A stretch of 64,000 bases of DNA. It comes from Geotalea toluenoxydans JCM 15764 (GTDB lineage: Bacteria; Desulfobacterota; Desulfuromonadia; Geobacterales; Geobacteraceae). Each line of letters begins with the position of its first letter. Within the stretch, counting starts at the first letter, position 1. A model generated the notes under the pieces. It was given only the letters and a program-made list of their open reading frames with translations, had not been told where the DNA came from and ran no database searches. The DNA is taken from positions 62,001 through 126,000 of the forward strand of contig NZ_BBCJ01000009.1 in the NCBI RefSeq assembly GCF_001311985.1, read 5' to 3'. The translations under genes were made by a program, and so were the position numbers. Positions 22,662-35,896 of this stretch are shown here, one piece after another.

Positions 22662-22830
22662 TCGTCTTAATCTGCCAATATAACGTCGTTTATTTTGACT
22701 TTTACCCTCCTGTATGTTAGAAATATTCACTTTTATCGTTTTTTCCCCCTCTCCCTGCTTGAGAAAATCGATTCATCGCCACTGACACCGTATACTGGTA
22801 ATTTTATCTAATAGTTTGAGGAAAAGTTTA

Positions 22831-24084
22831 ATGCACCACTTTCAGTACAAGGGGCACGATCTCTATGCCGAAGATGTGGCGATCAAGGACATCGTCGCCA
22901 AGGTCGGCAGCCCCTTCTACGTCTATTCCCAGGCCACCCTCGAGCGCCATTTCCGCGCCATGGACGAGGCTTTTGCTTCCGTTTCCCATACCATCTGCTA
23001 TTCGATGAAGGCCAATTCCAATCTGGCGGTGGTGAAGAACTTCGTCAACCTGGGTGGCGGCGTCGATATCGTTTCCGGCGGCGAGCTGTACCGTGCCCTG
23101 AAGGCGGGGGCGAGTCCTTCGAAAGTCGTCTACTCCGGCGTTGGCAAGAAGGATGACGAGATCGAGTATGCCCTCAATACCGGCATCCTCATGTTCAACG
23201 TGGAGTCGGAGCAGGAACTGACCCGCATTTCCGAGATCGCCAGCCGCATTGGCAAGAAGGCCGGGATCGCCATCCGCGTCAATCCTGACGTTGATCCCCA
23301 GACCCATCCCTATATTACCACAGGTCTAAAGAATGCCAAGTTCGGCATCACCATCGACCGCGCCATTGAAGAGTACAGTCGGGCCAAGGGCCTGCCTGGC
23401 ATCGAGATCCTCGGCATCGACTGCCATATTGGCAGCCAGCTGACCAAAGTCAGCCCCTTCGTCGACGCAATCAAGAAGCTGAAGAATGTCATCGGCAAGC
23501 TGAAGGAGATGGGCATCAGCCTCAAGTACTTCGACCTTGGCGGCGGTTTGGGCATCCAGTACAACGACGAAGCACCGCCACTGCCAGCCGATTACGGCAG
23601 CGAGATCATCAAAGAGACCAAGGACCTGGGCATGCACCTTCTTTTCGAGCCGGGGCGCAGCCTGGTGGGCAACGCCGGCATCTTGGTGGCCAAGACCCTT
23701 TACATCAAGCACCGCGACGAAAAGAACTTCATAGTGATCGACGCCGGCATGAACGATCTGGCCCGCCCGGCCCTCTATGGGTCCTTTCACGGCATTAAGC
23801 CGGTGGTTAACAACCAGGACGGCGTCATTACCGCCGATATCGTCGGCCCCATCTGCGAGTCGGGGGACTTCCTGGCCAAGGACCGTGAGGTGCCCGTGTT
23901 CAAACAGGGAGACCTGATGGCCTTCATGTCCGCCGGCGCCTACGGTTTCGCCATGTCCAGCACCTACAACAGCCGTCCCCGCGTTGCCGAGGTCATGGTC
24001 AAAGGAAACAAGTTCGAGGTTGTCCGCGAGCGGGAGACGGTGGAAGACCTGATGAAGGGTGAAAAAGTCCCTTCGTTCCTGTAG
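22831..24084 (+). CDS. lysA: Diaminopimelate decarboxylase
   Basis: LysA decarboxylates meso-diaminopimelate to lysine. The 417-residue alanine-racemase-fold enzyme has the PLP lysine in ICYSMKANSN (about residue 60), the phosphate-binding GGGLGIQY, EPGRSLVGNAGIL, the CESGD box with the catalytic Cys, and the C-terminal MSAGAYGFAMSSTYNSR. ATG 22831 with GAGGAAAAG upstream is the start. It heads a lysA-dapA-dapB-dapL series in one orientation. Confidence 0.96.
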   Translation: MHHFQYKGHDLYAEDVAIKDIVAKVGSPFYVYSQATLERHFRAMDEAFASVSHTICYSMKANSNLAVVKNFVNLGGGVDIVSGGELYRALKAGASPSKVVYSGVGKKDDEIEYALNTGILMFNVESEQELTRISEIASRIGKKAGIAIRVNPDVDPQTHPYITTGLKNAKFGITIDRAIEEYSRAKGLPGIEILGIDCHIGSQLTKVSPFVDAIKKLKNVIGKLKEMGISLKYFDLGGGLGIQYNDEAPPLPADYGSEIIKETKDLGMHLLFEPGRSLVGNAGILVAKTLYIKHRDEKNFIVIDAGMNDLARPALYGSFHGIKPVVNNQDGVITADIVGPICESGDFLAKDREVPVFKQGDLMAFMSAGAYGFAMSSTYNSRPRVAEVMVKGNKFEVVRERETVEDLMKGEKVPSFL

Positions 24085-24165
24085 ACTAAATAATATATGG
24101 GCAAGACCCTGTCTTTGCCCGGATAAGGCAGACACACCCCGGTCTGACCCAAACGGAGGTTGCAT

Positions 24166-25037
24166 ATGTTCAAAGGAAGCATTGTCGCCATTGTTACACC
24201 ATTCAACAATGGTGTGGTGGATGAAGAAAAACTGCGGGAACTGGTGGAATTCCAGATTGCCGGTGGCACCGATGCCATCGTGCCGTGCGGCACCACCGGG
24301 GAGTCCTCCACCCTGGACTACGAGGAGCATGACCGGGTCATTGAGATTGTTGTCCAGCAGGTGAACAAGCGGGTTCCGGTCATTGCCGGCACCGGCTCCA
24401 ACTCCACCCGCGAGGCCATCGAAATGACCGAGCATGCCAAGCAGCTCGGCGCCGACGGCGCGCTGCTCGTTACTCCATACTACAACAAGCCGACCCAGGA
24501 AGGGCTCTATCGCCACTACATGGCTGTTGCCGATGGGGTGGCCCTGCCCCAGATCCTCTACAACGTGCCGGGACGCACCGGCGTCAATCTGCTGCCGGAA
24601 ACGGTGGCACGGCTGGCCGAGCACAAGAACATCGTTGCCATCAAGGAAGCGACCGGCTCCCTGCAGCAGGCATCGGAAGTGCTGGACCTGTGCGGCGACA
24701 AGATTGACGTCCTCTGCGGTGACGATTTCATAACTTTCCCCATGATGCTTGCGGCGCCAAGGGGGTCATTTCGGTGGTCGCCAACATCATGCCCAAAGAG
24801 GTCGCCGCCCTGGTGGACGCCTTCTTTGCCGGCAAGATGGAAGAAGCCCGTCAGTGGCACCTGAAGCTGTTGAAGATCTCCAATGCCATGTTCATCGAGA
24901 GCAACCCGGTGCCGGTCAAGACCGCTGTTGGCCTGATGGGCAAGGCTAGCGACGAGGTAAGGCTGCCGCTGGCGCCGATGTCGGAAGCCAACAAAGCTAA
25001 ACTGACGGCAGTAATGAAAGAATACAAGCTTATCTAA
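24166..25037 (+). CDS. dapA: 4-hydroxy-tetrahydrodipicolinate synthase (frameshifted)
   Basis: DapA condenses pyruvate and aspartate semialdehyde. ATG 24166 follows GGAGG and begins MFKGSIVAIVTPFNNG. CGTTGESSTL and the YYNKPTQEGLYRHY segment are present, as is the Schiff-base lysine in VAIKEATGS. The frame slips near 24752: GCTTGCGGCGCC needs one more G, giving LAAGAKGVISVVANIMPKEV and running to TAA 25035-25037. Repaired length is about 290 residues, as expected. The gene should be essential in this pathway, so an error is likely. Confidence 0.95.
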
Positions 25038-25047
25038 ATCGATTCAC

Positions 25048-25114
25048 CACTAAGGCACGAAGAGCACTAAGTAAACCAAAGGTTCTTCCTTTCGGTTTCT
25101 TCGTGTCCTTAGTG
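25048..25114 (+). repeat. Dispersed inverted repeat in the dapA-dapB gap
   Basis: Near-perfect arms CACTAAGGCACGAAGA and TCTTCGTGTCCTTAGTG enclose an inner inverted repeat (AAACCAAAGG / CCTTTCGGTTT). The whole gap is occupied by a long potential hairpin. Sequences of this CACTAAGG...CCTTAGTG type are common interspersed palindromes. No T run follows, so a terminator role is not supported. Confidence 0.65.
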
Positions 25115-25142
25115 TCTTCCTGGTAAGACAAGGGGTTTTTCA

Positions 25143-25946
25143 ATGGTGAAAGTTGCCGTTTGCGGTGCCGCTGGCCGCATGGGTCAAAGGATTATAGTTG
25201 CAATAACCGAAGCCGAAGGGATCGAGCTCTCCGGTGCCCTGGAGCGGCCGGGCCATCCCCTGGTCGGTCAGGACGCGGGGCTTCTTGCCGGCTGCGGCGA
25301 ACTGAAGGTTAAGATCAGCGACGACATCAATGCCGTCGTCGAAGGGTGCGATGTCCTGATCGACTTCACCACCCCGAAGGTGTCCCTGAAGAACCTGGAG
25401 GTCTGTGCCCTGAAGAAGAAGTCTATCGTCATCGGCTCCACCGGCTTCACCCCCGAAGAACGGGCACTGGCTGCCGAGCTGGCCAAGGAGATCCCGGCGG
25501 TGCTCGCCCCAAACATGAGCGTCGGCGTCAACGTCTGCTTCAAGGTCTTGAAGGACGTGGCCAAGACCCTGGGTGACGACTTCGACGTGGAGATCGTCGA
25601 GCTGCACCACAACAAGAAGAAAGACTCCCCCTCCGGCACTGCGGTGCGCATGGGGGAGGTGGTGGCCGAGGCCCTCGGGCGCGACTACAACAAGGTGGCC
25701 AACTATCACCGGGAAGGAATCTGCGGCGAGCGGACCAAGGAAGAGATCGGCATGCAGACGGTCCGCGGCGGCGACATCATCGGTGAGCACACCGTCTACT
25801 TCATCGGCATGGGTGAGCGGATCGAGATTTCCCACCGGGCCATGACGCGGGATATGTTCTCCCGTGGTAGTGTCCGGGCGGCCAAGTGGATAGTTTCCCA
25901 GAAGCCGGGGATTTACGACATGCAGGATGTGTTGGGGCTGAAGTAA
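25143..25946 (+). CDS. dapB: 4-hydroxy-tetrahydrodipicolinate reductase
   Basis: DapB reduces the dihydrodipicolinate product of DapA with NAD(P)H. The 267-residue protein starts VKVAVCGAAGRMGQRI (Rossmann glycine loop) and has VLIDFTTPKVSLKN, the GSTGFTPEE loop, APNMSVGVNVCFK, the catalytic ELHHNKKKDSPSGTA box and C-terminal FSRGSVRAAKW. It is intact. It follows dapA after the palindromic repeat. Confidence 0.96.
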   Translation: MVKVAVCGAAGRMGQRIIVAITEAEGIELSGALERPGHPLVGQDAGLLAGCGELKVKISDDINAVVEGCDVLIDFTTPKVSLKNLEVCALKKKSIVIGSTGFTPEERALAAELAKEIPAVLAPNMSVGVNVCFKVLKDVAKTLGDDFDVEIVELHHNKKKDSPSGTAVRMGEVVAEALGRDYNKVANYHREGICGERTKEEIGMQTVRGGDIIGEHTVYFIGMGERIEISHRAMTRDMFSRGSVRAAKWIVSQKPGIYDMQDVLGLK

Positions 25947-25957
25947 GGAGCATTAAA

Positions 25958-26191
25958 ATGGCTACCACCTATCGGGACAGGCTGATCGCTGATATTGACG
26001 AGGTTCCTAAATCAAAACTGCCACAATTGTATGCCATCGTGCATACAATAAAGGAACAGTTGCTGACAACAGCTCCGACAGGACCAGGTGTTGGCAAGCG
26101 TTGTCTTGGCAGTGCCAAAGGGCATGTCTGGATGGCTGATGATTTCAACGCGCCGTTGCCGGATGAGATAGTTGACGAGTTTTACAAATGA
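25958..26191 (+). CDS. Putative VapB-type antitoxin (DUF2281-like)
   Basis: A 77-residue protein starting at ATG 25958 after AAGGAG. The N-terminal half (RDRLIADIDEVPKSKLPQLY) is helical, and the tail GSAKGHVWMADDFNAPLPDEIVDEFYK contains the G-x-K/G...DDF-x-x-PLPxE pattern seen in antitoxins paired with PIN toxins. It overlaps the downstream PIN gene by four bases (ATGA), the usual arrangement. It is expected to neutralise that toxin and to autoregulate. No separate palindromic operator is seen in the 11-bp gap to dapB, so it may be transcribed with the dap genes. Confidence 0.75.
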   Translation: MATTYRDRLIADIDEVPKSKLPQLYAIVHTIKEQLLTTAPTGPGVGKRCLGSAKGHVWMADDFNAPLPDEIVDEFYK

Positions 26192-26574
26192 AATGCCTGC
26201 TGGATACCCATGCGTTCATCTGGCTTATTACCGATGATGATCGCTTGTCAGCGAAGGCAAGAAAAACCATTCTTGATAGTCGAACTTTTTTATATCTTAG
26301 CAGCGCCAGCATTTGGGAGATGGTTGTCAAGGCCGCTATCGGCAAGTTGAAGCTTCCTGTTCATCCTGAAGCTTTCGTGCAGAAGCAGCTGGCGGCAGCC
26401 CAGATACAGGAACTCCCCGTCTCCTTCAAGCACGCCTTCCATCTGCAGCATCTGCCCAATCACCACAAGGATCCATTCGACCGAATGCTGGTGGCGCAGG
26501 CTCTAGCCGAAAAACTGACCATTCTCACAATCGATCCATTGATTGCCCAATATCCTGCAAAAACACTTTGGTAA
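26188..26574 (+). CDS. PIN-domain toxin (VapC-like ribonuclease)
   Basis: 128 residues. PIN acidic residues are visible: D6 in MKCLLDTHAFIWLI, E44 in SASIWEMVVKAA, and the C-terminal KDPFDRMLVAQALAEKLTILTID with two Asp. Such toxins cleave tRNA or rRNA. The YLSSASIWEM...HHKDPFDRMLVAQA form is the subclass commonly paired with DUF2281-type antitoxins. It is intact and forms a two-gene unit placed between dapB and dapL. Confidence 0.85.
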   Translation: MKCLLDTHAFIWLITDDDRLSAKARKTILDSRTFLYLSSASIWEMVVKAAIGKLKLPVHPEAFVQKQLAAAQIQELPVSFKHAFHLQHLPNHHKDPFDRMLVAQALAEKLTILTIDPLIAQYPAKTLW

Positions 26575-26601
26575 TAATTAAAATAAGGAGATTTCTACGT
26601 A

Positions 26602-27834
26602 ATGGCAAAAATCAACGACAACTACCTGAAACTGAAAGCAGGCTACCTCTTTCCCGAAATTGGCCGCCGGGTGCGGGCCTTTGCCGAGGCTAATCCCTCT
26701 GCCAAGGTCATCCGTCTCGGTATCGGCGACGTCACCCGTCCCCTGGCCCCGGCCGTGATCAAGGCCTTCCACCAGGCGGTGGACGATCTGGCTACCACCG
26801 ACCAGTTTGCCGGCTACGGCCCCGAGCAGGGCTACGACTGGCTGATCAATGCCATCATCGAGAAATCCTACAAGCCCCTGGGCGTTTCCCTGAAGACCGA
26901 GGAGATGTTCATCTCCGACGGTTCCAAGTGCGACTGCGCCAATATTCTGGACATCTTTGCCATGGACAACGTGGTTGCCATCGGCGACCCGGTCTACCCG
27001 GTTTACAACGACACCAACGTCATGATCGGCCGCACCGGCGAAGCCGATGACAAGGGCTACTACAAGGGGATCGTCTACCTCCCCTGTAACGAAGCCAACA
27101 ACTTCATTCCCGAGCTGCCCAAGGAGAAGGTGGACATCATCTATCTCTGCTTCCCCAACAACCCCACCGGCACCGTCGCCAGCAAAGCAGAGCTGAAGAA
27201 GTGGGTCGATTACGCCAACGCCAACGACGCCGTCATCTTTTTCGACGCCGCCTACGAGGCCTTCATCACCGATCCATCCATTCCCCACTCCATCTACGAG
27301 ATCGAAGGGGCCAAAAAGTGCGCCATCGAGTTCCGCTCCTTCAGTAAGACCGCCGGCTTTACCGGCGTCCGTTGCGGTCTGGTGGTCGTGCCCGAAGAAG
27401 TCATGGGCACCACCGCCGACGGCGAGCGTTACAGCTTCAATCGCCTCTGGCTGCGCCGCACCACCACCAAGTTCAATGGTGCTTCCTATCCGGTACAGCG
27501 GGCTGCTGCTGCAGTTTACAGCGATGAAGGCTGGAAGCAGACCAAGGAGATCATCGACTACTACATGGAGAACGCCCGCATCATCCGTGAAGGTCTGAAG
27601 GAAACCGGTGTCACCGTTTTCGGCGGCGTCGATGCCCCCTACATCTGGCTCAAGACCCCCGGCGGCATGACCAGCTGGGACTTCTTCGATAAGCTGCTCA
27701 ACGAATGCAACGTGGTCGGCACCCCCGGCTCCGGCTTCGGGCCTAGTGGGGAAGGATACTTCCGGCTTTCTGCATTTGGTCATCGGGAGAATGTGATTGA
27801 GGCGGTGGAGAGGATAAAGAAGAATTTGAAGTAG
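26602..27834 (+). CDS. dapL: LL-diaminopimelate aminotransferase
   Basis: DapL converts tetrahydrodipicolinate directly to LL-diaminopimelate, bypassing the acylated intermediates. The 410-residue class I/II PLP enzyme has the N-terminal [19 protein letters not shown], the substrate-binding [37 protein letters not shown] and the PLP lysine in [17 protein letters not shown]. It completes lysA-dapA-dapB-dapL, although it is separated from dapB by a toxin-antitoxin pair. It has its own ribosome site (AAGGAG) and ends at a hairpin. Confidence 0.97.
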
Positions 27835-28185: not shown

Positions 28186-29622
28186 TCACAAGATTTTCTC
28201 ACGCTGACGCTGTCTTTCGCGAGCTTTTTCAGCACCGATATCGCGACCGCAGAGTGAAAAATTTCGGTCTCCATGCCCTTCTAGTTCCTGACAATCACAC
28301 CCGTCTTTGCACTTCCTTTCGACATCGACTTCAATATTGCCTGGTATGTAGCGGTACCGCTGGATACCAAAATCACTGATTCCCCCAACCCCAGTTGCCA
28401 ACGCAATCAACTGAAGGACCTCAAGGGAAGCAAGATTGGTGCTGAAGGGGAAGACATTCTCGTTATTTTTGTGTCGATGATCAGGTGGCAAACCTTTCAT
28501 GTAGCTCGGGTCATCAAGTTTGCCTGATTCTTCCAAATTTACATCCGTGAGATTATAAGTCCCGAGGCACGCAAGACAGGGTCTGCCAGGCGCGACTGTC
28601 TGAAGTTGCCAATCGACGCCAGTGAACCGCTTATTCTTGTCGAAGCGAACTTCAATTCCTCCATCAACAACCGGTATTAAATGACTATATGCAAAATGGT
28701 TGAGAATATGTCGGGCGCGGGGGCGGTCAACGCAACTAAAAATAACGTCGCAATCCAGCGCTGCACGGTAACCTTCTTCTTCTGCTAAGCTGTGCGGTGT
28801 TGAAGCAATATCTGTTCTCTCTGCAGTTGCTGAATGCTCAAACTGCCGCTTAGCAACTTCTATCTTTAGTTTGCCAAGGTCTGCTTCTGTTGCCCCTAAA
28901 AGTCTGTCGAGATTGTGCGGCTGTATCTCGTCGTAATCAATCAAAGAAATAAACTGCATTCCCATGCGGGCCAGGGTTTCTGCGACAATACTGCCAACGC
29001 TGCCTAGCCCAATGATGCCAATTTTGAGACGAGCAAGGTTTTGGTGATTATCTTTGCCCCAAACGGTGATAGAACGCTTAAATTGCTCTCGATAAACAGG
29101 TTTCGGCATTAAATCATCATTAAAATCTGCCTTAAGCCCTATCCCGACAATGCGAACAGATTGGCACCATTCGCGACGATACTCGCGGCCACCAACGTGT
29201 TGCCACATTCTCGCACTCCAAGTGCCATCAGAACCTATGGTCATCCCTACAAGCGGCAAATCGGTTAGTGCTGCCACTGCCCCAGCGATCTTCCGCTCGG
29301 CCAAAATGTCGTCTTCACTCATACCCTGCCAACCGGCTCCGGGGTGACTGTGGAGAAAAGCAATTCCACAGCCTTCCCGTAAAGCAATTGCGCAAACTTT
29401 CTCAAAATAATCTGGGTTAAAGCTAGCGTTCCCATGGACCTGCCTATCTCCGGCTTCCGGAAATATAATTGTATGAATCAGAGCAGTTAAACGTGAATTC
29501 CCCTGTGATGGAGTCCACAGAGCAAAAGTCAGATCCTCTTGCCGATCCTTTCGAATTAGAAAATTTGAGAGGCTGGTGTTCAGCCTCTCAGGCATGGCTA
29601 CAGATAATGAAATCTTAAGCAT
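28186..29622 (-). CDS. JAB deubiquitinase-like / E1-like (ThiF) fusion protein
   Basis: 478 residues. The N-terminal JAB/MPN domain (about 1-150) has the JAMM zinc signature HSHP (91-94) with S102 and D105, so it should cut Ubl conjugates or mature the Ubl. The ThiF/E1 adenylation domain (about 195-435) has GLGSVG at 205-210, the DYDEIQPHNLDR stretch at 229-240 and VVDGGIEV near 320. A probable zinc site is made by CLAC (349-352) and the C438/C442/C444 cluster. There is no cysteine between 353 and 437, where thioester-forming E1 enzymes keep theirs. The gene overlaps the E2-like gene by 8 bases. The composition is richer in A/T than the dap genes, suggesting transfer. Confidence 0.88.
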   Translation of the reverse strand: MLKISLSVAMPERLNTSLSNFLIRKDRQEDLTFALWTPSQGNSRLTALIHTIIFPEAGDRQVHGNASFNPDYFEKVCAIALREGCGIAFLHSHPGAGWQGMSEDDILAERKIAGAVAALTDLPLVGMTIGSDGTWSARMWQHVGGREYRREWCQSVRIVGIGLKADFNDDLMPKPVYREQFKRSITVWGKDNHQNLARLKIGIIGLGSVGSIVAETLARMGMQFISLIDYDEIQPHNLDRLLGATEADLGKLKIEVAKRQFEHSATAERTDIASTPHSLAEEEGYRAALDCDVIFSCVDRPRARHILNHFAYSHLIPVVDGGIEVRFDKNKRFTGVDWQLQTVAPGRPCLACLGTYNLTDVNLEESGKLDDPSYMKGLPPDHRHKNNENVFPFSTNLASLEVLQLIALATGVGGISDFGIQRYRYIPGNIEVDVERKCKDGCDCQELEGHGDRNFSLCGRDIGAEKARERQRQREKIL

Positions 29623-29989
29623 TGGCGAATATCCCCTTTATTTGGTTCATGAGAAGACGTGTCGACCGTTCACTGCCGTTCCATCCGAAGTTGTGGCTCC
29701 AGTAGCGCCACTCTGGCCCCAGTGAGCTATTGGTTATGTTCCGTACGCCTGGTAACGTATCGGAGTAGTCAAATAATTGTGGTTCCGTTCTCACGTGTAA
29801 TGATGCGCCTACAGTACGAGGGAAATCTGGAGTGGCCGGGATGGCTAATTCAATAGTTCGACCAGCAAACTGTCCAAGGGGAACCTCATACTCCTCGATA
29901 ACTGCAAAAACCGCTTCACCCACGTTAATCATTTCAACAGCGTAGCCGAGTTCCACCAATTCAATGCGAAGTCTTTCAGGTCCAAACAT
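29615..29989 (-). CDS. E2-like protein without cysteine (prokaryotic E2 family)
   Basis: 124 residues, read between the Ubl and JAB-E1 genes, with RBS GAGGTG overlapping the Ubl stop. The pattern (IELVELGYAVEMI, VPLGQFAGRTIELAIPATPDFP, then GPEWRYWSHNFGW and a C-terminal helix) resembles bacterial E2/UBC-fold families that accompany multi-ubiquitin-type Ubls. The protein contains no cysteine at all, so it cannot form a thioester with the Ubl. A Ser/Thr nucleophile (for example the NSS preceding LGPEW) or a purely structural role is possible. Family assignment is from motif memory and context, not a search. Confidence 0.72.
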   Translation of the reverse strand: MFGPERLRIELVELGYAVEMINVGEAVFAVIEEYEVPLGQFAGRTIELAIPATPDFPRTVGASLHVRTEPQLFDYSDTLPGVRNITNSSLGPEWRYWSHNFGWNGSERSTRLLMNQIKGIFANA

Positions 29990-29998
29990 ATCAGCACC

Positions 29999-30232
29999 TC
30001 ACGAAACAGTAGTTGGGGTATTGTGGTAAACAACAAATTTCATGCCGTTAACGAGGGTTAGGACCATGGCAAGGTCCATAAGTTTCTCGAGTTCATTCCC
30101 ATGCCGCCTAACTAATGTAGTCTCGTTAGGGTTTGACATGGCGAAATCTTCGAGGAGTTCGCGAACAGTGACTTCCGTTTTCTCAGTTTTGAATTGTTCC
30201 TGATCGATGAAAAACACAATTTCTTTCTTCAT
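29999..30232 (-). CDS. Ubiquitin-like protein (single multi-ubiquitin-type domain)
   Basis: 77 residues forming one beta-grasp-like unit: strand (EIVFFIDQEQFK), strand (TEVTVRELLEDFA), a middle region with LVRRHGNELEKL, and the end GMKFVVYHNTPTTVS. The MKFVVYHNTPTTVS tail is like the ends of multi-ubiquitin domains. It lacks a terminal diglycine and has no extra tail to trim, so Ser77 would be the residue activated by the E1. It is first in a three-gene operon and faces the divergent XRE gene across a 186-bp regulatory region. RBS AAGGAGAAGG precedes ATG 30232. Confidence 0.75.
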   Translation of the reverse strand: MKKEIVFFIDQEQFKTEKTEVTVRELLEDFAMSNPNETTLVRRHGNELEKLMDLAMVLTLVNGMKFVVYHNTPTTVS

Positions 30233-30291
30233 GGCACCTTCTCCTTTTGCACGGGTTAAATTCTTAAACGTGTGCTTAGGTTATTTTATTT

Positions 30292-30369
30292 TGCTTGATA
30301 CGTCAAGCATTATTTTTGCCTTGCGTAGTTAGTCAAGCATTAAATAAGTTTTGCTTGCTGAAGTGAGCA
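30292..30369. promoter_or_regulatory. Three phased 18-bp operator-like sites between the Ubl operon and XRE gene
   Basis: Site 1 (30292-30309) is a perfect inverted repeat TGCTTGA-TACG-TCAAGCA. Sites 2 (30322-30339, TGCGTAGTTAGTCAAGCA) and 3 (30352-30369, TGCTTGCTGAAGTGAGCA) share the TGC...GCA frame with degenerate arms. The start-to-start distance is exactly 30 bp twice, close to three helical turns. The intervals are T/A-rich. This is the natural place for the XRE protein to repress both directions; the binding is inferred. Confidence 0.7.
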
Positions 30370-30418
30370 TGTTTGTCATAATATCTCTATATAAAAAGCA
30401 CTTCCCCGGGAGGTACCC

Positions 30419-30808
30419 ATGCCAAAGACAAATGAAAAGCCTAATCGTCCTGAGGCAAAAGAGCTGGGAAACTATCTAGCCAACATCCGCACCGCAAAGC
30501 GTATGACGCTCAGAGAAGTTGAAGATGCAACCAATAAGGATGTATCTAACGCCTACCTCAGCCAGCTCGAAAACGGTCGGATCAACAAACCTTCGCCGAG
30601 CATTCTCCACTCCCTTGCTTCGGTATATAATGTCCCCTATGAAATGCTCATGGAAAAGGCCGGTTATATTTCATCAGCCGCTGATCGTATTGAAAGTCAG
30701 AAGCACGGTCGAGTTGCAACGTTTGCTGGCGAAAATCTCACTCCAGAAGAAGAGGATGAATTACTAGAGTATCTTGCTTTCCTCCGCACACGTAGGGGCC
30801 ATAAATGA
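30419..30808 (+). CDS. XRE-family transcriptional regulator
   Basis: 129 residues with an N-terminal helix-turn-helix of the Cro/CI type (about 14-70: LGNYLANIRTAKRMTLREVE, then SNAYLSQLENGRINKPSPSI) and a C-terminal acidic helix (LTPEEEDELLEYLAFL) typical of regulators paired with ImmA-like proteases. RBS GGGAGG precedes ATG 30419. Its stop overlaps the next ATG (ATGA), so both are coupled. It is likely the repressor of its own operon and of the divergent Ubl operon, relieved when the protease acts. Confidence 0.88.
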   Translation: MPKTNEKPNRPEAKELGNYLANIRTAKRMTLREVEDATNKDVSNAYLSQLENGRINKPSPSILHSLASVYNVPYEMLMEKAGYISSAADRIESQKHGRVATFAGENLTPEEEDELLEYLAFLRTRRGHK

Positions 30809-31712
30809 TCAAGGCAGATGATAGCACCATCGACCCACCACAACTTTTAGCAATTCGCAAGCATGCACAAAGAGCATTGGAAGCTGCTGCAGCTATCGGT
30901 AAATACCCTACACCAATAGCTGACGTGATGCACAGTGCACAGGTAATCGTGGTTGAAGAAGATGTTTTGGATGAAGGGTTTTTGGCGCGCGTTCGCCGTG
31001 CGTCAGGGAAGCTAAAGCAGGCTCTTAGCAAGGTTTTAGGTGTGCTCGACATTAAAGCGAGGCTTATCTATCTCGACCGCACATTACATTCAGTCAAGTT
31101 AACCTTTCTAAAGCTGCACGAAACTGCTCATGCTGTCCTGCCTTGGCAAAGAGATATTTATGGAGTGGTTGAGGACTGCAAACAAACTATCGCACCTGAA
31201 GTCAGTGAGAATTTCGACAAGGAAGCAAACATATTTGCTTCCGAAGTTCTTTTTCAATTGGATGACTTCACAAGACAAGCAGCTGATCAATCGTTCGGCA
31301 TCAAAGTTCCAATTTCATTAAGCAAGAAATATGGTTCATCAATTTACGCTGCCGTACGAAGATATGTTTCCACAAATCACAGGGCTTGCATTGTTATTGT
31401 CATTGATCCTCCGGAGTTAGTGGCAGGTGATGGCTTTCAGGCAAATTTGCGTAGGGTGGTTACCTCTGCTGGATTCGATCTAACCATGGGAACCCTTAAT
31501 TGGCCAAAGTACTTTACCCCGGGAGACGAAATAGGAGCAATGATTCCGATAAATGGCCGAAAAATGTCTTATCCTAGAAATTGCTCTCTTAGGGATGCTA
31601 ATGGTGGCCTGCATGAATGTATCGCCGAGGCATTTACTAATACCTATCAAGTGTTTGTGCTTATTTATCCAGTTTCAAAGCTTTCAAAAAAAAAATGTCC
31701 TGTTATAAATAG
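30805..31712 (+). CDS. ImmA/IrrE-family metallopeptidase
   Basis: About 300 residues. The zinc motif H105-E-T-A-H109 (FLKLHETAHAVLPW) plus E140 in FDKEANIFASEVLF define a gluzincin of the ImmA/IrrE (COG2856) type, which cleaves partner XRE repressors during SOS or phage signals. A C-terminal GAF-like half (IVIVIDPPELVAGDG onward) may sense a ligand. A run of ten A at 31686-31695 lies at the 3' end: as written the frame runs on through repeats into the fic 3' end, while one more A gives KKKMSCYK and a stop at 31710-31712. I take the shorter end. Transcriptional slippage on this tract is possible. Confidence 0.8.
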
Positions 31713-31722
31713 CTCTGGGGAG

Positions 31723-31786
31723 ATGCATAAGGGTCGGGAGATGCATAAGCGGATGCATAAGGGTCGGCGGATGCATAAGGGTCGCG
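31723..31786. repeat. Short tandem repeats with ATGCATAAG core
   Basis: Four copies of ATGCATAAG start at 31723, 31741, 31753 and 31771 (spacing 18, 12, 18). Three continue as GGTCGS. Copies are in direct orientation. The block separates the convergent ImmA-like and fic genes and abuts the fic stop. It is too short and irregular for CRISPR and looks like a slippage-prone array. Confidence 0.85.
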
Positions 31787-31787
31787 T

Positions 31788-32960
31788 CTACACATTACAC
31801 AAATTGCTTGTGAGATCCTTCTGTAGTTCAGTCCCTTCGCTGACAATCTTGACGTATTCTCGGTACATGAATTTGCGATTTCTCCTGCCTTTGCTGATCT
31901 GCTGCAGAAGGCCCAAACGCTCACAGGTGCCAATCATTTCGTTGGCTTTGGTATAGCTTACCCCGGCTATCTTGGCAACGTCGTTTGCCATTACAACAGG
32001 TTGCTTCATGAGGCCCCGCAGCAGTTTCAGCCCGTGGGCGCCTTCCCCTGCCTCTACCAGCCGGTCCACATCATCCCGCTCCAGCGCCTGAATTCTCCTG
32101 GTCGTTTCAAGCACCATTTTGGATACTTCGATTATCCCCTCAAGAAAGAAGCGGGTCCAGGCTTCGAAATTTCCGTCCACTCTCACCTGGGTCAAGCGGT
32201 CATAATATTCCTGCTGATGCGCTTTTAAATAGGCGCTTAGGTAGAGCATCGGCTCATCGAGAATCCCTTTCCAGACCAGATAGAGTGTTACCAGCAAACG
32301 TCCCACCCGGCCATTGCCGTCGTTAAATGGGTGGATGGTTTCAAATTGATAGTGCAGCAGTCCGCAACGAACAAGCGGAGGGAGGGAGTCTTCCTTGTGA
32401 AGATAAAGCTCGAAGAGGTTCAGTGCCTCCTGCATTGTCTCGGGAGGTGGCGGGATAAAACGGGCATTGGCAGGGTTGGAGCCGCCAATCCAGTTCTGCA
32501 TGGTTCGGAACTCTCCGGGAGTCAGGTGAACCGCTCCACCTCGAACCTGTTGCATGAGAACCTCGTGGATCTCGCGGAGTAGTCGCAGCGACATGGGGAA
32601 ATCGTCTGCCCTGAGCCGTTTCAACCCGTGGCGCATGGCTTTGACATAATTTATTACCTCGCCTACGTCGGCAGTCGGCTCGTGATCTTCGTCGGCACCC
32701 AACACATCAACGAGAGATGACTGGGTGCCTTCGATTTGTGAACTGAGCAGTGCTTCCTTCTGGATAAACATCCCCACCAGCAGATCAGGGTTGGGAAGCA
32801 CCGTTACTACCACATTCAGTGCGCCAAGCGCGCGGTCGGCAGCCGAGAGCAGCAATTGCAACTCACCTTCAAGACGGATTGGAGGATCAGGCGGCAGCGG
32901 CGCCGGGAAAAAAGAAGTGTATCCTGCGAGGGTTTTTTTGAAAACGCCGCTTCGAGACAT
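31788..32960 (-). CDS. Fic-domain protein (AMPylase-like) with C-terminal winged helix
   Basis: 390 residues. The Fic active site HPFNDGNGRVGR lies near residue 205, so the enzyme can transfer AMP (or another nucleotide) to a protein hydroxyl. The inhibitory helix motif SSQIEGTQSS is near residue 75, ahead of the Fic core, which makes this a self-contained class II Fic protein. The C-terminus (VVMANDVAKIAGVSYTKANEMI) is a helix-turn-helix, suggesting DNA binding and autoregulation. RBS AGGAGG precedes ATG 32960. It is intact. Its last codons touch the ATGCATAAG repeats. It has no separate antitoxin. Confidence 0.92.
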   Translation of the reverse strand: MSRSGVFKKTLAGYTSFFPAPLPPDPPIRLEGELQLLLSAADRALGALNVVVTVLPNPDLLVGMFIQKEALLSSQIEGTQSSLVDVLGADEDHEPTADVGEVINYVKAMRHGLKRLRADDFPMSLRLLREIHEVLMQQVRGGAVHLTPGEFRTMQNWIGGSNPANARFIPPPPETMQEALNLFELYLHKEDSLPPLVRCGLLHYQFETIHPFNDGNGRVGRLLVTLYLVWKGILDEPMLYLSAYLKAHQQEYYDRLTQVRVDGNFEAWTRFFLEGIIEVSKMVLETTRRIQALERDDVDRLVEAGEGAHGLKLLRGLMKQPVVMANDVAKIAGVSYTKANEMIGTCERLGLLQQISKGRRNRKFMYREYVKIVSEGTELQKDLTSNLCNV

Positions 32961-34303: not shown

Positions 34304-35622
34304 TTACAGCTTCACATCCAGCTCATTCTGCACCAGCTGCTCACGAACCTGCTTCTTCCTGATCAGCACCAGCTCACCGCTGCGGGTTTTCATGACCGCT
34401 CCCGGCTTGCGGTGGGAGTTGTAGTTTTCCGGCGACATACTCTCGGAGTAGGCTCCCGTGCCGCCGATGACCACATAATCCCCGATTTCCGGTTCGATAA
34501 TCAGCACCGGCACGATGTTGCCGTCTTTGTCCAGACGCACAGAGTCGCCGCTTTCGCAGCAGCGCCCGACAATACCGAACGGTTTCAGTCCGGCCGTCGG
34601 CGTCTGGTCGTACTCGCTGGAGAGCAGCGTACCGTCCTGGCGGACGATGGCGATGGGGTGCTCTGAGCCGTACAACAGCGGGCGTGTCAGCAGTTCCATG
34701 CCGCCATCGACGATCAGGAAGTTCATGCCGTTGGTCAGCTTCTTGTCGATTATCTTCGTAACAATGTGGCCTGAGTTGGCTACGACAAAGGTTCCCGGCT
34801 CGATCTCCATCGTCAGTTCTCGGCCGGTGGCTGCCTTGAATTCCTCTACCCGCTGCTTGGCATAGGCGCCCAGGGAGGTGATATCGGCCTGTTTTTCTCC
34901 CGGCATCCTGGCGACCTTGAGTCCGCCGCCGAAGCTGACGGTGGTGGCATCGGGGAAATAGCTCCGCACAAAGCCCAGTTCACGGTCGATGTTTTCCCGC
35001 CATTTTTCCGGGTCGCCACCGGAGCCGATATGCACATGCACCTGGGTGAAGCGTAGTCCCTTCTCATCAGCCAAGGCTTTCACCTTGGGACATCGTTCAG
35101 GTGGACGCCGAAGCAGGAATATTCGCTGCCGGTGTCGCGGGTGGCGCTTTCACCGCCGCCGGCAGCTCCCGGATGGACCCGGATCGACAGGTCGATGGTG
35201 TTGACTTTGGCAAAGTCGGCAATCAGTTGAAACTGGGTCAGGGAGCAGACGTTGTACTTGAGGCCGGCTTTGAGCATCGCCTCCAGTTCGGCGCGTTCCT
35301 CATCGGCCGGCACCTCCTGGGTGGTGAGCATCATTCGGCTATAGGGAATGCCGGCGGCATGGGCGCGGGCCGCTTCATCCACCGACGAGCAGTCCAGATC
35401 CAGCCCCTTGTTGGTGACGACCCGCAGGACGGTGCGATCCGAGTTTGCCTTCATGGCGTAGCGCACATGCAGGCCGTAGGCATTGGGCATGTTCAGCAGC
35501 TGTTCACAGCTGTTTTCGATGTATGCCTGATCGTGCAGATATACCGGCGTTCCCCACTGCTTGGCAATTTGGGGGATGAGCATTGCATCGAGTTTGGTCG
35601 GACCAAAGTGTTTCATCGTCAT
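34304..35622 (-). CDS. Second diaminopimelate decarboxylase-family PLP enzyme (frameshifted)
   Basis: About 440 residues of the fold III decarboxylase group. The PLP lysine is in VRYAMKANSD; HVHIGSGGDPEKW, the SFGGGLKVA loop, EIEPGTFVVANSGHI, RCCESGDS and a final GTGAYSESM follow. The pattern is that of diaminopimelate or carboxynorspermidine decarboxylases but differs clearly from the lysA at 22.8 kb, so it may act on another diamino acid. The frame slips near 35083; CCAAGG should be CCCAAGG (DVPKVKALADEK). ATG 35622 is the chosen start. It stands alone with its own terminator. Confidence 0.82.
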
Positions 35623-35896
35623 TCTTACACCCTCATAATTTGATATGACACTGCATTCCACAGTCTTCGAACAAAGATGGACATTCCTTTTAACATTTTA
35701 GACCGGTATGGTGCAAGATATCTGTGGAATTTTGTGCGTAACGGTGGAGTTATGGGGATAGCACATTTATTCCAAAAGTGGGCCAGTGCCCCCTTTGCCA
35801 TTTTAATGCTTGAAATTTTCCGGTTTAATGAGCGAGAATGTGCAGCATGCATATCAGTTTCTTCCTTAATGAAACAGCCACCGTTTCAATGTTTTT

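Follow-up and report, generated by a model that had tools for sequence, protein, structure and literature searches.

Three TGC-N12-GCA sites are located in the gap between two divergent transcription units of the 64-kb window (the whole stretch of DNA analysed here), and they form a real, non-random cluster. The sites are read as operators of a CapH-like XRE repressor because of their divergent position, their overlap with predicted −35 and −10 elements and their tracking of one XRE family across genomes. On these comparisons of sequence, the array probably serves a switch in which the repressor holds both flanking units shut until a partner protease relieves the repression, a reading we hold with good but not complete confidence.

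The array is housed in a 186-bp gap (30233-30418), with the leftward gene starting at 30232 and the rightward gene at 30419. Site 1 (TGCTTGATACGTCAAGCA, 30292-30309) scores 24.4 bits, site 2 (TGCGTAGTTAGTCAAGCA, 30322-30339), in which 4 of 7 arm positions pair, scores 18.3 bits, and site 3 (TGCTTGCTGAAGTGAGCA, 30352-30369), with 5 of 7 arm positions paired, is the weakest at 13.1 bits; none is assigned to a strand, and the start-to-start step is exactly 30 bp. An earlier sequence-only reading had claimed sites beginning at 30292, 30322 and 30352, the first of them a perfect 7-4-7 palindrome, and all of this holds. The scores come from a matrix of 30 sites from 10 loci (consensus TGCTTGATATATCAAGCA), which includes the window and was afterwards used to score the same 10 loci on which it had been trained; when the window was held out of training, sites 1, 2 and 3 scored 24.8, 16.9 and 5.9 bits.

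The TGC-N12-GCA outline alone is common, with 35 occurrences in the window against 24.9 expected, but at a threshold of at least 12 bits the full matrix finds the three array sites and nothing else in the 64 kb. When the gap was shuffled 20,000 times with its dinucleotides preserved, sites averaged 0.059 per shuffle, a pair at 28-31 bp arose in one shuffle and three sites in none (0/20,000), by which a chance origin of the array is ruled out. The exact triple array was found in one of 98 scanned genomes of the class, which is the source genome of the window, and a looser two-site pattern in 4 of 277, in sequences that lack the TGCTTGA/TCAAGCA arms. The exact string TGCTTGN6CAAGCA occurs once in the source genome; with two mismatches allowed it is found genome-wide at 181 places, compared with 57 for the reversed control.

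The leftward unit consists of three genes on the minus strand, in agreement with the ubiquitin-like (Ubl) unit that had been proposed on this side. The first (29999-30232) encodes a 77-aa protein for which neither Pfam nor a sequence-profile search returned a match. Its AlphaFold model (mean pLDDT 88.8) is nearest to the bacterial multi-ubiquitin 8u38 (TMq 0.75) and Citrobacter BubA 9ea8 (TMq 0.73), with E values of about 2e-3 to 5e-3, so that a BubA-like fold is predicted. The second (29615-29989) encodes a cysteine-free E2-like protein of 124 aa that scores 23.5 bits against Prok-E2_E, just under the 25-bit cut-off, and has no sequence match in the PDB, and so none to a solved Bub E2. Four of five aligned E2-like sequences lack cysteine and the fifth has a single, unconserved one, and a G-x2-W-x-YWS stretch is invariant in all five; judged from this alignment, non-cysteine chemistry is likely. 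The third (28186-29622) encodes a BubCD-like JAB-E1 fusion of 478 aa with a ThiF match and the JAB motif HSHP-x7-S-x2-D, whose best PDB match is Citrobacter BubCD 9ea4 (E=1.6e-21, residues 10-353). The Ubl fold, the E2-like protein and the BubCD-related fusion together identify the leftward genes as a Bub-type operon. Just left of it, lysine-pathway-like genes for a decarboxylase, DHDPS, DapB and an aminotransferase (22816-27834, plus strand) may mark the insertion spot.

The rightward unit is the XRE/ImmA gene pair that had been expected there, both genes on the plus strand: a CapH-like XRE repressor of 129 aa (30419-30808) and a CapP-like ImmA/IrrE (M78) protease with the sequence HETAH (30805-31956). 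The two genes overlap by 4 bp, from the protease start codon to the xre stop. The XRE profile, built from a 16-sequence alignment (A1), matches the CapH N-terminal domain 7t5u with E=3.4e-9, and Foldseek aligns the XRE model to the same structure (E=8.1e-3, TM 0.82 on the target). The CapH match is not exclusive: the profile also matches the immunity repressor 8bny, ClgR, DdrO and SinR, with SinR, ClgR and DdrO scoring about like CapH, the model resembles DdrO 6rnx, and the PADLOC capH match is weak (28.2 bits, 7.5e-7). Of 277 genomes of the class, three, the source genome among them, have an XRE relative at E≤1e-15. The protease is recognised by Pfam, by PADLOC capP (4.9e-14) and by its match to CapP 7t5t, and the HExxH residues are invariant in 13 of 13 aligned sequences.

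In the XRE model, the N-terminal part is a helical HTH domain and residues 109-126 form a C-terminal helix; the linker between them is disordered (pLDDT under 50 at residues 92-105). The linker carries the motif HG[RKH]x[AP], which is present in 11 of the 16 XREs of alignment A1, every one of them beside a protease, although in L062 the annotated protease gene lacks its N-terminal part. The motif is missing from L060, L066 and L069 despite a protease being present, and also from two Piwi-linked XREs (L067 and L068), where no M78 neighbour is annotated. It is put forward as a candidate protease target.

Downstream, the end of the protease ORF (31704-31956) extends beyond the ends of its relatives into an 18-bp tandem repeat (MHKGR-type), probably through a late stop-loss, and overlaps the 3' end of a convergent Fic-family gene by 169 bp. 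That Fic gene (31788-32960, minus strand; PADLOC SoFic, E=5e-111) adjoins the switch and is a second candidate defence gene. Further along, a PLP-dependent decarboxylase (34304-35661, minus strand) is spread over two overlapping ORFs, perhaps as the result of a frameshift.

Predicted promoters for both units overlap the sites. By consensus match only, a sigma-70-type promoter for the Ubl operon (TTGACT-N16-AATAAT) is predicted at 30309-30336 on the minus strand and a weak xre-immA promoter (TTGCTG-N18-TAATAT) at 30355-30384 on the plus strand. The leftward −35 hexamer lies inside site 2 and the predicted leftward −10 shares its last base with site 1, while site 3 overlaps the predicted rightward −35. 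In all 16 loci a site coincides at least in part with the best leftward −35, and in 13 of 16 with the best rightward −35; these counts are not independent and are partly built in, as the operator motif itself contains TTGAC. With sites overlapping the best −35 boxes, repressor and polymerase would compete for identical bases.

The TTGAC within the motif, together with the flagging of two of the palindromes as terminator-like, could be taken to mean that the palindromes act not as protein sites but in RNA, as hairpins or terminators, or are merely conserved −35 boxes. This is highly improbable. The stems comprise only 7 pairs, 3 of them G-C, and the flagged hairpins are on the plus strand upstream of the predicted rightward start and so would not be transcribed from it; on both grounds, stem length and position outside the predicted rightward transcript, the hairpin or terminator reading was rejected. 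In addition, the middle sites of the three-site arrays in L053, L057, L058 and L061 carry neither of the best promoters and nevertheless keep both the palindrome and the spacing.

The placement of three sites between divergent promoters, and the drop in held-out scores from site 1 to site 3 (24.8, 16.9 and 5.9 bits), would also suit a lambda-like graded and bistable switch in place of simultaneous repression. In such a switch the Ubl operon would be closed through the strong sites 1 and 2 when little repressor is present, and autorepression through the weak site 3 would set in only at high repressor levels. The order of site strengths is not conserved, however, the xre-proximal site being the strongest in the spaced arrays of L053, L058, L061 and L063, which leaves a general graded scheme unsupported; we regard it as unlikely. 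Simple protease-relieved repression of both units is the reading pursued below.

Related loci show that the repressor faces a range of target operons. The closest XRE relative, L051/L053 (XRE 76%, protease 66% identical), diverges from another Ubl operon, made up of Multi_ubiq, DUF6791-ThiF and DUF6527 genes, and L052/L054, a relative from the same taxonomic order as the window with an XRE 60% identical, faces DUF2188, DUF2604-like and ThiF genes, the last two being below cut-off. Among plasmids, the XRE had 18 matches, of which 14 were fetched (H9 and H16-H18 were left out because their species had already been fetched). Eleven of the 14 plasmid loci (L056-L066) diverge from a Ubl/ThiF operon, the link resting on tblastn in L057 and on a Pfam Ubl match in L066; two (L067 and L068) lead an operon with PD-(D/E)XK and Piwi-type genes, the third gene of L068 being annotated as hypothetical and called Piwi-type by similar layout only; and one (L069) faces neither kind. 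The closest relative of the window E1, L025 (73%), has neither the window's XRE/ImmA pair nor the sites, and carries a small, co-directional HTH-like ORF upstream. With XRE relatives facing other operons and L025 lacking the pair, the repressor cassette and the Ubl operon appear, from these sequence comparisons, to have been exchanged independently.

The sites, together with their spacing, go with the repressor family and not with the target operon. Of the 16 Ubl-linked XRE loci, 12 have two sites 28-30 bp apart, as do 12 of the 17 XRE loci that were scanned whole. Successive spacings, in bp, are 30 and 30 in the window, 30 and 29 in L053, 18 and 29 in L054, 29 and 29 in L057 and L061, 29 and 28 in L058, 28 in L059, 30 in L060, 29 in L062 and L064, 18, 29, 29 and 56 in L063, 29 and 22 in L065, 29 in the phage contig L074 and 32 in the Piwi-linked L068. 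The operator motif also precedes the XRE genes that lead the Piwi-type operons of L067 (4965-8640) and L068 (4998-8670). Four Ubl-linked loci have no 28-30 bp pair: L056 has a single site, L066 lacks sites altogether, and in the actinobacterial L035 and L045 the palindromes are of a different, TGCAC-based type and lie closer together (19 bp in L035). The diverged XREs of L035 and L045 have the recognition helix VSTAYLLKLEKG in place of VSNAYLSQLENG, in line with their different palindromes, although L066 keeps the SNAYLSQ helix without the motif, so that helix and operator do not correspond one to one.

The spacing was also recovered by a leave-one-locus-out motif built from single best sites. 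The first seed, site 1 of the window plus one other, was replaced by retraining without the held-out locus; L057 and L061 were excluded because of their similarity to L058; L066 and L069 took part in the scoring only. In 10 of 16 loci the next-best site lay at a distance of 28-30 or 57-60 bp, and one of these loci, L056, is weak at 1.3 bits. The corresponding binomial values, 3.6e-6 and, without the near-duplicate L063, 1.8e-5, are guides and not strict probabilities, as the distance classes were picked post hoc and the loci share ancestry.

The 48,400 bases of control sequence taken upstream of Ubl-E1 genes contained no site of at least 12 bits in any of 22 regions, comprising 20 loci without an XRE match, one of which (L047) has a protease match, and the two diverged-XRE loci L035 and L045; the notion that the array is a property of the Ubl operon was rejected on this result. 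The sequence-only reading had asked whether the sites are lacking from otherwise conserved loci, and their retention in three quarters of the Ubl-linked XRE loci is the answer. Its assignment of the sites to the XRE protein is upheld in that they track this XRE, and needs amending in that they are not tied to the Ubl operon, as L025 illustrates.

The same data bear on whether the XRE has its targets elsewhere and the sites serve another regulator, for instance a LexA-like or nucleoid protein of the host. The commonness of the TGC-N12-GCA outline in the window (35 occurrences) would allow this, but the full motif is restricted to the array, is absent from all 22 control regions and follows the XRE in the taxonomic order of the window, in plasmids of alphaproteobacteria and on phage contigs, and where the recognition helix is changed, as in the actinobacterial XREs, the palindromes are changed too. 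We consider another regulator very unlikely, and continue with the XRE as the protein that probably binds the sites.

The spacing had been interpreted as placing bound dimers on one face of the DNA. The distance of 28-30 bp is conserved; a single face is only approximate, as these distances correspond to a non-integral 2.67-2.86 turns at 10.5 bp per turn, with residuals per step of −120, −86 and −51 degrees for 28, 29 and 30 bp respectively. Since loci with two and with three sites share the same 28-30 bp unit, repressor geometry, not promoter geometry, probably sets the spacing, the likeliest cause being contact between repressors. The non-integral turns point more to a flexible contact, made by way of the linker and the C-terminal helix, than to rigid side-by-side packing.

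In the proposed switch, XRE dimers would occupy neighbouring sites cooperatively, blocking the leftward promoter from which the Bub-type Ubl-E2-JAB/E1 operon would be transcribed, and autorepressing the rightward xre-immA promoter. The switch would open when a signal, most likely single-stranded DNA arising through DNA damage or phage replication, activates the M78 protease and the XRE is cleaved; the probable cut region is the disordered linker (about residues 92-108) with its conserved HGRxATFA motif. Loss of the dimers would empty the sites and allow the Ubl pathway, fresh repressor and protease to be made, and once the signal fades the repressor would re-close the switch. The nature of the signal is inferred from CapP and PprI, both of which are activated by single-stranded DNA according to the accessible parts of the respective papers (PMC13373217 and PMC10904395). 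DNA damage or phage signals had been named as the trigger; what those parts report for such pairs is, more narrowly, single-stranded DNA acting on the protease.

Relatives of the repressor are also found on viral contigs. A scan of IMG/VR with alignment A1 returned 44 loci, in which the recognition helix is shared by construction, as the search pattern required [VI]SNAYLSQ. L070, L071, L080, L082 and L083 have XREs 50-59% identical on phage contigs, those of L082 and L083 being putative, with no recognisable M78 gene nearby, and in L073, L074 and L075 protease homology is reduced to 45-76 residues. The XREs of L070, L071, L080 and L085 lie among phage DNA polymerase, exonuclease, primase, terminase or helicase genes, and L085, like the other three, has no protease in its neighbourhood. 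One explanation is that phages carry protease-free, possibly protease-proof, XRE copies that keep host Ubl operons shut during infection, which we consider doubtful. The linker motif is absent from 7 of 11 sequences in alignment A5, including L082 and L083, and no operator of at least 12 bits was found in the available DNA of L071, L082 and L083, which for L082 and L083 would fit action in trans on host operators. Against it, L070 and L071 keep the linker motif, which A5 otherwise shows in the window and L080 (4 of 11 in all), and a single XRE recurs on several contigs between differing flanks, which may reflect recombination or misassembly. Two copies of one XRE with different flanks (L074 and L081) also occur on a single 46.8-kb IMG/VR contig.

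If the sites act as proposed, they spell out the operator code of a family of CapH-like repressors, in which one cassette of repressor, protease and spaced operators pairs with quite different Ubl operons and, through its operator motif, also with Piwi operons. With such a code it would be inexpensive to predict the bacterial Ubl pathways that answer to a DNA-damage-type signal. It would also provide defined sites for reporters that could reveal the triggers of Bub pathways, for which, according to PMC13373217, phage protection had not been demonstrated.

The same paper counts CapW or CapH+CapP in 219 of 544 Bub operons (PMC13373217), so the gene pairing beside Bub and its DNA-damage logic are, to that extent, already known. 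What appears to be new is the spaced operator array: none was recognised in the literature searched, and the accessible main text of an XRE-palindrome paper (PMC12565409) contains none of the motif strings. No priority is claimed over the original CapH description (Lau 2022). As with CapH+CapP in CBASS, BREX, Pycsar, DISARM and Bub, the window places an HTH repressor and an M78 protease beside an immune operon, to which it adds the multi-site array with its 28-30 bp unit. It shares with Bub operons the Ubl fold, the E2-like protein and a JAB-E1 fusion homologous to BubCD, but its Ubl is one 77-aa domain ending in TTVS and not a tandem multi-ubiquitin, and no DUF6527 gene was recognised next to the operon among the ORFs scanned.

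The logic of an M78 protease and an XRE repressor is common to the window and to PprI(IrrE)/DdrO of Deinococcus, but the latter governs a genome-wide regulon, whereas control in the window is local and, as far as seen, limited to one operon; the DdrO operator also differs from the window sites. The lambda OR region likewise has three operators between divergent promoters, and the window differs from it in encoding a partner protease beside the repressor and in its unit spacing of 28-30 bp. RptR, as described in the accessible part of PMC12255303, has 6-bp sites and an unrelated fold, with no partner protease mentioned there, but its three repeated sites, bound cooperatively in the control of a defence island, resemble the three sites of the window.
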